A stretch of DNA of 64,000 bases from Methylohalobius crimeensis 10Ki (lineage in GTDB: Bacteria > Pseudomonadota > Gammaproteobacteria > Methylococcales > Methylothermaceae), in the NCBI RefSeq assembly GCF_000421465.1, contig NZ_ATXB01000001.1, positions 620,001 through 684,000 on the forward strand, read 5' to 3'. Made by a program: the position numbers and the translations under genes. The notes under the pieces were generated by a model, which was not told where the DNA came from, ran no database searches, and saw only the letters and a list, made by a program, of their open reading frames with translations. Shown here piece by piece: positions 60,137 through 63,741 of this stretch (positions are counted from its first letter, which is position 1; every line of letters starts with the position of its first letter).

Positions 60137-62836
60137 ATGAACGAAAACCATAAAACGCTCGTTTTGGTGGATGGTTCCTCCTTTCTTTACCGGGCTTATC
60201 ACGCCCTACCGCCCTTGAGCAATTCCCGGGGCGAGCCCACCGGGGCGGTCTACGGCGTCGCCAATATGCTGCGCAAGCTACTGGAAACCTATCCCACGCC
60301 TTATTTCGCGGTGATCTTCGATGCGCCGGGCAAAACTTTTCGCAATGACTTATTTGAGGCCTATAAGGCCCACCGTCCTCCCATGCCCGAGGATTTGAAA
60401 GCTCAGGTAGGGCCTTTGCAAGAATTGATCGAAGTGATGGGCATCCCGGTGATCGTCGAGGGCGGGGTGGAGGCCGACGACGTCATCGCCACTCTGGTCA
60501 AACAAGCCACGGCAGAGGATTACCACGTGGTGGTGGCGACCAGCGACAAGGATCTGGCTCAGCTGGTGGGGGATCGGGTCATGCTCGACAACACCATGTC
60601 CGAAACCCGGCTGGATGCGGCGGGCGTACGGGAGAAATTCGGCGTTCCGCCGGAAAGGATTGTCGATTACCTGGCGTTGGTGGGGGATACTTCCGACAAT
60701 ATTCCAGGCGTGCCCGGCGTGGGCCCCAAAACCGCCGCCAAATGGCTGAATCAATACGGCTCTCTGGACGAGGTCGTCGCCCACGCCGGTCAAATCAAAG
60801 GCAAGGTGGGGGAACGTTTGCGCGAGCATCTGGACAATCTCGCCTTGGGAAAACGATTGGCGACCGTCCACAGCGAGGTGACTTTGGATAGGCGACCGGC
60901 GGATTTGCGGCGCCGATCTCCCGACAATGTCAAGCTGATGGAATGCCTCAAGCGCTTCGAGTTCATGACCTGGCTGCGCCAACTGGATTTGCCATCCACT
61001 CGGGATGGCGATTTTGCCGAAGCGGCTGCGGCCGATTACCAGGAAGTGCGCACCGCCGATTCGCTGGATGCTTGGCTGGCCGATTTGAAGGGGGCACCCC
61101 TATTTGCCTTCGACACCGAGACCACCGATCTCAACTATCTGGACGCGCGGGTGGTGGGGGTGTCGTTCGCGGTCCGGCCGGGCCGGGCCGCCTACGTGCC
61201 GCTAGGGCACGACTATCCCGACGCCCCCCGGCAGCTGGATCGGGAAGTAGTGTTGGAAAAGCTGCGTCCGCTGCTCACGGCCGACGATGTGGCCAAGCTG
61301 GGGCAGAATCTCAAATACGACGCCCACGTGCTCGCCAATCACGGCATCGAGCTCAAGGGGATCGCCCACGATACCATGCTGCAATCCTATGTCTTCAATA
61401 GCACCGCCACTCGCCACGATATGGACTCTCTGGCCATGACTTATCTGGGGATCAAAACCACCCTGTACGAAGAGGTGGCCGGCAAGGGGGCCAAGCAGAT
61501 CCCCTTTCCCCGGGTGAGACTGGAACAAGCGGTGCCCTATGCGGCCGAGGACGCCGACATCACCCTGCGCCTGCATCAGGCGCTATGGCCCAAGCTCGCC
61601 GCCGATACCCGGCTCAAGCGCGTGTACGAAGAAATCGAGATGCCTTTGGTGCCGGTATTGGTGCGGATGGAGCGCATCGGCGTGCATGTGGACCGGGACG
61701 AACTCGCCCGCTTGAGCGAGGAACTGAAGCGTCGCTGCGACGAGATCGAAGAACAGGTCTGTTGCATCGCCGGAGAGGCCTTCAATCTGGCTTCTCCCAA
61801 GCAGATCCAGCAGATTCTTTTCGAGAAGCTGAATTTGCCGGTGTTGAAGAAAACGCCCAAGGGGCAGCCTTCCACTTCCGAGGAAGTATTGCAGCAACTG
61901 GCGGAAACGTACGAATTGCCGCGCCTGATTTTGCAGCACCGTTCCTTGAGCAAGCTCCGGTCCACCTATAGCGACCGCCTGCCCGCCCAGATTCATCCCG
62001 CCACCGGCCGGGTTCACACCTCCTATCATCAAGCGGTGACCGCCACCGGTCGCTTGTCCTCCTCCGATCCCAATTTGCAGAATATTCCCATTCGGAGCGA
62101 GGAAGGACGTCGTATCCGGCGGGCTTTCGTGGCCCCCCGTGGATGCAAGCTGGTGGCGGCCGACTACTCTCAGATCGAGCTCCGCATTATGGCCCATTTG
62201 TCCGGGGATGCGAGCCTTCTGAATGCTTTCGCCGAAGGCGCCGATATTCATCGCGCCACGGCCGCCGAAGTCTTCGGGGTGGAATTGGAGGCGGTGAGTT
62301 CCCAGCAGCGTCGCAGCGCCAAGGCGATCAATTTCGGTCTCATCTACGGCATGTCCGCTTTCGGTTTGGCGCGCCAGTTGGGTGTGCCCCGCGACGAGGC
62401 CCAGGCCTATATCGATCGCTACTTCGAGCGCTATCCGGGCGTGCGCGAGTATATGGAGCGGACCAAAAGCTCGGCTTATGAGCGGGGTTACGTGGAGACG
62501 ATTTTCGGACGTCGTCTGCATCTGCCGGAGCTTAAATCGAGAAACCCCCAACGCCGCCAGTACGCCGAACGCACCGCCATCAACGCGCCCATGCAGGGAA
62601 GCGCCGCCGACATCATCAAGCGGGCCATGATCGATGTGGACGGCTGGATTCGGGCATCCGGAAGGGGTGTCAAGATGATCATGCAGGTTCACGACGAATT
62701 GGTGTTCGAAGTGGCCGAGGACCGGGTAGAGCAAGCGGTTGCCGAGATCGGGGGGCGGATGCGAGAGGCCGCCGAGCTTCAAGTGCCCTTGGAGGTGGAA
62801 GTGGGAATGGGTGACAATTGGGACGAAGCACATTGA
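60137..62836 (+). CDS. polA: DNA polymerase I
   Basis: Pol I (899 residues) fills gaps and removes RNA primers. Three domains are intact: the 5'-3' nuclease (VLVDGSSFLYRAYHALPP to GVPGVGPKTAAKWL), the proofreading 3'-5' exonuclease (AFDTETTDLNYLD and YAAEDADITLRLH, with catalytic acids present) and the polymerase (DYSQIELRIMAHLSGD, RRSAKAINFGLIYGM, VHDELVFEV). It is followed by a structured noncoding region and engB, an order shared with enterics and pseudomonads. Confidence 0.98.
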   Translation: MNENHKTLVLVDGSSFLYRAYHALPPLSNSRGEPTGAVYGVANMLRKLLETYPTPYFAVIFDAPGKTFRNDLFEAYKAHRPPMPEDLKAQVGPLQELIEVMGIPVIVEGGVEADDVIATLVKQATAEDYHVVVATSDKDLAQLVGDRVMLDNTMSETRLDAAGVREKFGVPPERIVDYLALVGDTSDNIPGVPGVGPKTAAKWLNQYGSLDEVVAHAGQIKGKVGERLREHLDNLALGKRLATVHSEVTLDRRPADLRRRSPDNVKLMECLKRFEFMTWLRQLDLPSTRDGDFAEAAAADYQEVRTADSLDAWLADLKGAPLFAFDTETTDLNYLDARVVGVSFAVRPGRAAYVPLGHDYPDAPRQLDREVVLEKLRPLLTADDVAKLGQNLKYDAHVLANHGIELKGIAHDTMLQSYVFNSTATRHDMDSLAMTYLGIKTTLYEEVAGKGAKQIPFPRVRLEQAVPYAAEDADITLRLHQALWPKLAADTRLKRVYEEIEMPLVPVLVRMERIGVHVDRDELARLSEELKRRCDEIEEQVCCIAGEAFNLASPKQIQQILFEKLNLPVLKKTPKGQPSTSEEVLQQLAETYELPRLILQHRSLSKLRSTYSDRLPAQIHPATGRVHTSYHQAVTATGRLSSSDPNLQNIPIRSEEGRRIRRAFVAPRGCKLVAADYSQIELRIMAHLSGDASLLNAFAEGADIHRATAAEVFGVELEAVSSQQRRSAKAINFGLIYGMSAFGLARQLGVPRDEAQAYIDRYFERYPGVREYMERTKSSAYERGYVETIFGRRLHLPELKSRNPQRRQYAERTAINAPMQGSAADIIKRAMIDVDGWIRASGRGVKMIMQVHDELVFEVAEDRVEQAVAEIGGRMREAAELQVPLEVEVGMGDNWDEAH

Positions 62837-62841
62837 ACGAG

Positions 62842-62868
62842 GAACTTTTATCCTGTTCGTTTCTCTAA
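62842..62868 (+). promoter_or_regulatory. candidate sigma-E (RpoE/AlgU) promoter
   Basis: GAACTT (62842-62847, preceded by G) and TCTAA (62864-62868) are 16 bases apart, followed by TAAAAC. This agrees with the RpoE consensus, and the arrangement is the same as in the well-known rpoH P3 promoter (GAACTT, 16 bases, TCTGA, TAAAAC). It lies just after the polA stop and points into the hairpin-rich stretch. The start would be near 62875. Confidence 0.7.
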
Positions 62869-62874
62869 TAAAAC

Positions 62875-62999
62875 AAGTGTCGGGAACGACGCCTAACCTA
62901 CTCATTTCCTCCCTTGTGAGTAGCGAGCGGCTCCGGCCCCCCCAAGCCGGAGCATCATTGACCCCGAAGCCCTTCCCCCTTGGCTTCGGGGTTTTTTTT
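62875..62999 (+). ncRNA. candidate sigma-E-driven small RNA at the Spot 42/ErsA locus
   Basis: Between polA and engB a stretch of about 125 bases follows the sigma-E-type promoter and ends in a strong intrinsic terminator. It folds into three hairpins: CTACTCA/TGAGTAG (62898-62904, 62917-62923), GCTCCGGC/GCCGGAGC (62930-62937, 62946-62953) and the terminator stem. All three loops are C-rich (TTTCCTCCCTTG, CCCCCCAA, CTTCCCCCTT) and could pair with Shine-Dalgarno sequences. Spot 42 in enterics and ErsA in Pseudomonas aeruginosa occupy this same position, and ErsA depends on AlgU. I see no reading frame. Homology in sequence is not claimed; the 5' end is estimated. Confidence 0.65.
62961..62999 (+). 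terminator. strong intrinsic terminator after polA and the candidate sRNA
   Basis: CCCCGAAGCC (62962-62971) pairs perfectly with GGCTTCGGGG (62982-62991), loop CTTCCCCCTT, followed by eight T residues (62992-62999). It ends any polA read-through and the predicted small RNA; a long U tail of this kind suits Hfq binding. Confidence 0.93.
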
Positions 63000-63012
63000 A
63001 AAACCGTTGCTA

Positions 63013-63119
63013 TGGACGTTGAGGGATGGCTTTCGAGGATGTTGGCGACCCGGATGGTCGCCATCAAGCCCCCACAAGGGGGGTGACGGCGTTCCTCGAA
63101 AGCCATCCCTCAATGTCTA
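63013..63119. repeat. nested inverted repeat between polA and engB
   Basis: Outer arms 63019-63039 and 63093-63113 are perfect 21-base inverted copies; with wobble pairs the stem extends to 63013 and 63119 (27 pairs, two G-T). Inside lie two further hairpins: GGCGACC/GGTCGCC (63044-63050, 63056-63062) and CCCCC/GGGGG (63069-63073, 63078-63082). The whole 107 bases can fold as a three-way junction. It could be a REP/MITE-like non-autonomous element or a structured 3' end for the leftward engB transcript; it has no T run on either side. Confidence 0.85.
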
Positions 63120-63129
63120 CAAAGACGCC

Positions 63130-63741
63130 TTATTGAATGGGATTCCCGGGAGTCTGGAGCCAGCGATCGAGTACGGCGTGGGCTTCGTCGATGCCGGTTT
63201 TTTTGCTTGCCGAAAATAACTGGATGCTGGGAGGATGAAGGGATTCCGCCAATGTCTTTTGAACCTTAAGCAGGGTGTTCTTGGCCGGGCCGTATTTGAG
63301 CTTGTCGGCCTTGGTCAGCAAAATATGCAGCGGCAGCTCGTAGTGCGCGCACCACTCGATCATCCGCCAGTCGAACTCGCTCAAGGGGTGGCGGATATCC
63401 ATGATCAGGAAGATCCCCCGGAGCGACCGACGCTGTCTGAAGTAATCCTCCAGGGACCGGCTCCAGCGGGCTTGAATCCGGGCGGATACCTTGGCGTACC
63501 CGTAACCGGGAAGGTCCACCAGACGACGGCTGTCATCCACTTCGAAAAACACCAACTGCTGCGTGCGCCCCGGGGTCTTGCTGGTGCGGGCGAGGGCTTT
63601 TTGTCGGGTGAGGGCGTTAAGCGCGCTGGATTTGCCGGCATTGGAGCGCCCGGCGAAGGCGACCTCGAAACCCGTGTCGGGGACGGCGGCGAAATCCAAG
63701 GTACTGAGCAGGAAACGAGTGCGATGATACAAAGGGTTCAT
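63130..63741 (-). CDS. engB: ribosome biogenesis GTPase EngB (YsxC/YihA)
   Basis: EngB (203 residues) is an essential GTPase in 50S assembly. The G motifs are GRSNAGKSSALNAL (G1), TPGRTQ (G2), DLPGYGYAKV (G3), TKADKL (G4) and FSASKKTG (G5). It is convergent with polA across the structured noncoding region and divergent from the cytochrome c gene. Confidence 0.96.
   Translation of the reverse strand: MNPLYHRTRFLLSTLDFAAVPDTGFEVAFAGRSNAGKSSALNALTRQKALARTSKTPGRTQQLVFFEVDDSRRLVDLPGYGYAKVSARIQARWSRSLEDYFRQRRSLRGIFLIMDIRHPLSEFDWRMIEWCAHYELPLHILLTKADKLKYGPAKNTLLKVQKTLAESLHPPSIQLFSASKKTGIDEAHAVLDRWLQTPGNPIQ

Follow-up and report, generated by a model that had tools for sequence, protein, structure and literature searches.

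The analysed window, a 64,000-nucleotide stretch of the Methylohalobius crimeensis 10Ki genome, very probably encodes a small regulatory RNA (sRNA) between polA and engB, preceded by a promoter of the sigma-E (ECF) type. The explanation that best accounts for the evidence as a whole, to which we assign a probability of roughly three in four, is that of an RpoE-driven, trans-acting sRNA that would block ribosome-binding sites through C-rich loops and would belong to an old, polA-linked family. The gene, its structure, loops, promoter boxes, terminator, locus and distribution are established by comparative sequence analysis; its transcription, RpoE as the responsible factor, its base-pairing targets and its role in the envelope are what we infer. 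An sRNA gene with a sigma-E-type promoter at this locus had been proposed in the initial annotation, and the proposal is now strongly supported by stem covariation, by conserved C-rich loops and by promoter boxes kept at a fixed distance. Homologues were identified with two promoter-free covariance models, R1 (built from 12 sequences) and R2 (36 sequences), which contain no upstream sequence and whose training sets include no Pseudomonas and no named Xanthomonadaceae sequence. The features of the locus are as follows.

60137..62836, + strand: polA, the upstream neighbour (NCBIfam NF004397 and TIGR00593 over cut-off)
62841..62847, + strand: -35 box GGAACTT of a predicted sigma-E (ECF) type promoter (sequence; conservation in genus and class)
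62863..62868, + strand: -10 box CTCTAA (sequence; TC conserved at the same offset in class loci)
62877..62998, + strand: predicted sRNA gene, ~122 nt by model span (R1 match of 137 bits, fold z-score, covariation)
62877..62892, + strand: 5' hairpin, the least certain element (minimum-free-energy fold)
62898..62923, + strand: hairpin 1, with loop UUUCCUCCCUUG at 62905-62916 carrying the anti-Shine-Dalgarno-like CCUCC (fold; class-wide loop conservation)
62930..62953, + strand: hairpin 2, with loop CCCCCCAA at 62938-62945 (fold; class-wide loop conservation)
62962..62999, + strand: hairpin 3, with loop CUUCCCCCUU at 62972-62981, and intrinsic terminator with eight T (sequence, fold, loop conservation)
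63130..63741, - strand: engB (yihA/ysxC), the downstream neighbour, convergent with polA (NCBIfam TIGR03598 over cut-off)

The two converging genes leave a gap of 293 bases, in which GAACTT starts 5 nt past the polA stop codon (62834-62836). The arrangement GAACTT-N16-TCTAA read there in the initial annotation is exact, with GAACTT at 62842-62847 and TCTAA at 62864-62868 lying 16 nt apart (15 nt between the full boxes GGAACTT and CTCTAA); GAACTT-N16-TC is the sigma-E/AlgU promoter type. Scored with a weight matrix built from 102 class promoters, none of them from the genus of the window, this site reached 18.9 and was the top site on both strands of the 64 kb (runner-up 13.6), and the maxima in 20 mononucleotide-shuffled windows, one strand each, spanned 9.3-18.2. 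By these scores, the promoter exceeds chance expectation. A simple scan detected no sigma-70-like promoter, and a simple terminator scan yielded a single terminator-like site, where shuffles average 1.2; we treat such simple scans as no evidence. Counts of promoter patterns in the organism's own genome were likewise rejected as proof, since the strict pattern occurred at 2 sites against 12 in the reversed control, i.e., more rarely than in the control, and the other pattern at 3 sites against 8. One other strict-pattern site of the genome (L145:1501-1528) lies within a reading frame, just upstream of a gene that by eye resembles the one for cytochrome oxidase subunit II.

The stretch 62875-62999 folds with -56.9 kcal/mol (z = -6.28), a stability equalled by 0 of 200 shuffles. 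Three hairpins and a perfect eight-T terminator had been noted at the outset, and the minimum-free-energy structure recovers four hairpins, namely those three plus the terminator, whose T run (62992-62999) follows a perfect 10-bp G+C-rich stem. The C-rich loops in the last three hairpins had been overlooked. Moreover, the description of this stretch as having no reading frame needed correction: mechanical frames at 62739-63086 (+ strand) and 61583-63106 (- strand) cross it. The + strand frame is broken inside the RNA in three of the seven copies that were read (L003, L004 and L006) and is therefore not conserved, and on this ground a coding function for the stretch was rejected.

Comparison among homologues argues that the stems are maintained. 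On the MAFFT alignment underlying R1, 85.8% of the cells pair and 15 of the 31 pairs display changes on both sides; cells with such changes number 28, whereas shuffles give 8.2 and slid controls 7-13. Judged by the count of further pair types alone, this alignment does not exceed its shuffles (104 of 500 reach the same count). The model-fitted alignment of R2, which leans toward the structure, contains both-side changes in 29 of the 31 pairs. Additionally, unconstrained RNAalifold on alignment A2 returned 20 pairs, which make up hairpins 2 and 3 and, in shortened form, hairpin 1, with the 5' hairpin absent. Since the RNA of the window is itself a training sequence of the models, its 137-bit R1 score holds by construction, and the independent support for its membership of the family comes from the covariation and from the locus in other genomes rather than from its own score.

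Among named sequences, the engB closest to that of the window (74%) comes from a Methylothermaceae MAG whose polA-engB gap reads identically to that of L008, another locus of the genus, and on this basis the genus is placed in Methylothermaceae. Within the genus, the sRNA is present in nine of ten genomes, the organism's own included; the tenth, an assembly of ~530 contigs (G005), gave no R1 match. All nine copies carry an exact GAACTT, 34 or 35 nt before the start of the RNA model, while the spacer sequence differs and the -10 box varies around (G/C)TC. No polA was found near the RNA in L003, L006 and L007, three of the nine loci, with promoter and RNA still present; in L007 the end of engB lies ~0.9 kb away from the RNA. 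Between the sRNA terminator and engB of the window lies an inverted repeat (63015-63117) with 25-nt arms, 96% complementary and spaced by 53 nt; no further copy of the arm occurs in the 64-kb window. Two loci of the same genus, L004 and L005, feature a comparable long hairpin element, placed between polA and the sRNA, and together these elements suggest a mobile or repeated element landing in the polA-engB gap. In the same two loci the engB frame stays open for 235 aa, aligned to residue 198, with its stop only inside the sRNA (L004:1375-1496 and L005:2102-2223), so that engB, on the opposite strand, may extend over the sRNA's 3' half.

A covariance search with homologues from related genomes, which the initial annotation had put forward as a check, extended this picture considerably. 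R1 matched 54 of 151 genomes of the order, and R2, at E <= 0.01, had matches in 174 of the 369 class genomes, in 98 families as counted by the labels of the search tool and transcribed by hand from the match table; under stricter filters, 195 of the 369 genomes had no R2 match. We examined 129 class loci from the 174 matched genomes, each the best match of a listed genome down to E 2.5e-9, retrieved in two fetches (29 + 100) and checked for uniqueness; the set leaves aside the organism's own genome, 5 more of the listed genomes and those of the 174 that were not listed. Judged in fetched flanks of up to 1.5 kb, polA and/or engB accompany the RNA in 110 of the 129 loci, or 108 of 127 when L148 and L175, which repeat R2 training rows, are set aside. 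Among the 110 linked loci, 60 have both genes, 29 engB only and 17 polA only, all in the orientation of the window, and in 4 the RNA is reversed. The remaining 19, some on short contigs, have neither gene in the fetched flanks. For 13 of these 19, flanking frames were sampled; the 18 proteins obtained, 8 of which had no Pfam family, reveal varied neighbours: a BCCT transporter, radical SAM/TRAM, an M48 peptidase, an amino acid permease, a ribose-5-phosphate isomerase and a nuclease-like protein. In L238 and L254, from one family, the sRNA sits downstream of an M48-family peptidase gene, away from polA and engB. As a control, R2 was run across the phylum, where 41 of 299 genomes had a match and 18 of these belong to other classes; at the 11 out-of-class loci fetched from these 18 genomes (best 41 bits, two on short contigs) neither polA nor engB was found. 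Of 15 in-class loci newly fetched from this search, 11 were linked and 4, all below 34 bits, had neither gene. Weak R2 matches are thus partly false, and the figure of 174 class genomes is likely somewhat high.

The promoter, which the models do not see, is conserved alongside the RNA. An exact GAACTT lies at -55 to -30 in 76 of the 129 loci (74 of 127 without L148 and L175), against a mean of 0.8 and a maximum of 4 in 200 mononucleotide shuffles and 0 in the stretch from -115 to -90. When at least five of the six letters are required, the count rises to 107 of 129 (mononucleotide shuffles: mean 15.0, maximum 26; control stretch: 9). The exact sites cluster at -37 to -33 (69 of them), and TC occupies one fixed -10 offset in 92 of the 108 loci with a -35 box (counted here as at least five of six letters within a somewhat enlarged stretch), where ~7 would be expected by chance. 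A -35 box occurs in at least one genome of 68 of the 74 families, and an exact one in 47 of 74. Across class and genus loci, the two boxes hold their distance as the sequence of the spacer changes, and the sigma-E-type promoter is conserved both in all nine genus copies and class-wide. The searched stretch holds no -35 box in 21 of the 129 loci, including the sX13-type L273, L156/L220/L229 (one family) and several with other upstream sequences. In L187, L190 and L205 (family f17), also without GAACTT, the upstream stretches look more sigma-70-like by eye. The initial annotation had stated that it would fall if related genomes conserved neither the boxes nor the hairpins, which is not what the related genomes display. 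Its further suggestion, that sigma-E control of the polA-engB sRNA reaches beyond the pseudomonads, is supported by the boxes of the class loci: given the class-wide conservation of locus and promoter, sigma-E-type control at this site looks much wider than that group.

A sigma-E system is encoded in the genome of the organism. Its RpoE matches TIGR02939 at 306 bits (cut-off 236), and the genes that follow carry RseA_N and then MucB/RseB domains over the Pfam cut-offs; neither RseA nor RseB reached its NCBIfam equivalog cut-off in this genome. A gene for Hfq is also present. In the ~1.5 kb that precede rpoE in this genome, the weight matrix uncovered no sigma-E-like site (best score 2.6), and autoregulation of rpoE was rejected for that reason. 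The same result leaves some room for a real sRNA that a second ECF factor or a housekeeping sigma factor would transcribe, and which would not be an envelope-stress RNA. The existence of another TIGR02939 match, which at 43.4 bits stays under the cut-off, and the different upstream sequences of sX13-type and some other loci point the same way. We nevertheless consider this unlikely, given that the promoter is of the sigma-E/AlgU type with its position conserved in most class loci, and that ErsA, at the same locus, is described as induced by AlgU in the available passages of PMC5819304.

On the preferred reading, RpoE transcription would work as follows. Under envelope stress, an anti-sigma factor would release RpoE, and this RpoE/AlgU-type ECF factor would transcribe the ~122-nt trans-acting sRNA from its own promoter in the polA-engB gap. 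The C-rich loops (CCUCCC, CCCC and UCCCCC) would then base-pair with ribosome-binding sites rich in G, or with enhancers close to them, and thereby repress translation, as reported for Xanthomonas sX13. By analogy with other sigma-E sRNAs, the payload may be a reduced synthesis of envelope and outer-membrane proteins—the weakest step of the scheme, and one on which we would place about even odds.

The loops themselves carry much of the argument for pairing. CCUCC is the anti-Shine-Dalgarno core, and in the class loci examined (129 of 174) loop 1 contains CCTCC in 104, loop 2 CCCC in 116 and loop 3 CCC in 103, with CCC in all three together in 91; CCC occurs in the 5' loop of only 12 of the 129, and GGG in any loop of 3. 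Loops that stay constant while their stems covary form the pattern expected if they contact targets. An RNA acting instead as a protein sponge or as a dual-function mRNA, rather than as an antisense regulator through its loops, would fit the several similar loops, the tandem copies in 9 of the 129 loci and the annotation of E. coli Spot 42 with the small protein SpfP. CsrA/RsmA sponges, however, carry GGA motifs and not C-rich loops, no small frame is conserved in the seven copies read, and sX13 is reported to act by C-to-G complementarity (PMC3771888, in part), which makes this alternative very improbable. Hardly credible is the notion that the gap holds no regulatory RNA, just a strong terminator for two convergent genes and promoter boxes that arose by chance. 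The convergence of polA and engB and the terminator formed by the 3' hairpin would fit it; against it stand the covariation of three further hairpins, the conservation of loops and promoter boxes, and the persistence of both the RNA and its -35 box in 17 of the 19 loci with neither polA nor engB in the fetched flanks.

With respect to described RNAs, the initial annotation had seen little obvious similarity to either Spot 42 or ErsA, a view that has to be corrected: a single model matches the window RNA, sX13 and, more weakly, ErsA over the full length. On the window, none of the Rfam models compared here reached its gathering threshold; ar14 (RF02344) gave the best sub-threshold score, 37.1 bits (gathering 58.8), followed by sX13 (RF02232; 34.9, gathering 50), anti-hemB (RF02837; 32.7, gathering 49.5) and ErsA (Pseudomon-1, RF01719; 25.4, gathering 50). 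Spot 42 (RF00021, gathering 80) had no match in the window at gathering, and none near the gap even with E values up to 5 allowed. Across the 369 class genomes, the Rfam models passed their cut-offs three times for sX13, once for ErsA and never for Spot 42, and an all-Rfam scan of 20 class loci produced two hits over cut-off, both to anti-hemB (L147, engB-linked, and L165, polA-linked). R2 recovered the three sX13 loci at full length (47.0, 43.1 and 39.5 bits) and the one ErsA locus found by the Rfam model at the same place (29.9 bits); R1, in a locus search that covered 91 of 111 loci, matched 13 of the 14 Pseudomonadaceae loci searched, at 25.4-39.7 bits. On the E. coli spf gene R2 scored only 12.7 bits (E 0.02), and homology to Spot 42 was rejected as a claim; a megablast search against E. 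coli genomes gave no match.

Spot 42, a CRP-regulated metabolic RNA, also sits between polA and yihA/engB, but the window has no Rfam match to RF00021. As described in the accessible parts of PMC3771888, sX13 lies downstream of polA, measures about 115 nt, has three C-rich loops and a terminator, and represses mRNAs with G-rich motifs by loop complementarity without requiring Hfq; its authors pointed out that Spot 42 and alpha-r7 are also found at polA loci and raised the question of others. The window RNA shares with it the site downstream of polA and three stem-loops with apical C-rich motifs, whereas the four sX13-type loci that we looked at lack GAACTT at the expected place. In its stead, the sX13-type loci L276, L277, L278 and L299 have a common TTCACGAACC ~30-45 nt upstream, perhaps another promoter or an operator. 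ErsA is seated in the polA-engB gap and has three stem-loops (PMC8575079, in part), and the window resembles it in this position and, by sequence, in the sigma-E/AlgU-type promoter; it differs in that ErsA pairs with the anr mRNA through a U-rich unstructured region, with Hfq needed there (same passages). Anti-hemB (Burkholderia RNA 7), a table entry in the portions seen of PMC5688073 and PMC3521395, resembles the family through the polA- or engB-linked class loci over its Rfam cut-off. The alphaproteobacterial ar14 has three hairpins with CCUCCUCCC loops in its Rfam consensus, but the 11 out-of-class R2 loci fetched (of 18 such genomes) lack polA and engB. Burkholderia ncS35 was set aside as a relative, being flanked by other genes, and the Acinetobacter ECF-sigma sRNA SabS led nowhere, as the passages available do not place it at polA. 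In a literature search with most subscription papers outside its scope, only the sX13 paper (PMC3771888) combined "small RNA" with "downstream of polA", and we found neither a study treating both sX13 and ErsA nor a description of the polA-linked C-loop family.

The window RNA, which matches the promoter-free model (with the window in its training set) and lies beside polA and engB, would thus represent one branch of an old polA-linked sRNA family that includes sX13 and probably ErsA: matches of sX13 and, more weakly, ErsA loci to a promoter-free model indicate that they are probably branches of one family. Among the promoters observed in this family the sigma-E type is the most frequent, and it is absent from the sX13-type loci examined. 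Going one step further, we find it reasonably likely that the window RNA, sX13, ErsA and probably anti-hemB descend as lineage branches from one ancestral gammaproteobacterial module—a sigma-E promoter joined to a C-loop, ribosome-site-blocking sRNA—that took its seat next to polA at an early stage of the class; this would make it a widespread, unnamed sigma-E sRNA, present in four tandem copies in some lineages, of which Xanthomonadaceae would have swapped the promoter while enterics perhaps rebuilt the locus as Spot 42. Such a class-wide family, combining one commonly conserved switch with conserved pairing loops, would connect Rfam families that are currently separate. For many lineages missed by the Rfam cut-offs of sX13, ErsA and Spot 42, it predicts an envelope-stress RNA. 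It also suggests that sigma-E repression through a small RNA at the polA locus predates the single pseudomonad example.

Finally, the tandem arrangements (at E <= 1e-5 in the 9 of 129 loci, themselves 129 of 174) extend to four copies each in L159:867-1617 and L199:683-1612, from two genomes of one family. Most copies have their own GAAC-type -35 box and a (G)TC -10 box, the exceptions being one copy each in L193 and L216 that lacks such a pair of boxes and one L159 copy with a poorer -35 box. Two sRNA copies also occupy the polA-engB gap of a named gammaproteobacterial MAG (L056:3586-3855), the second of them without a clear -35 box.
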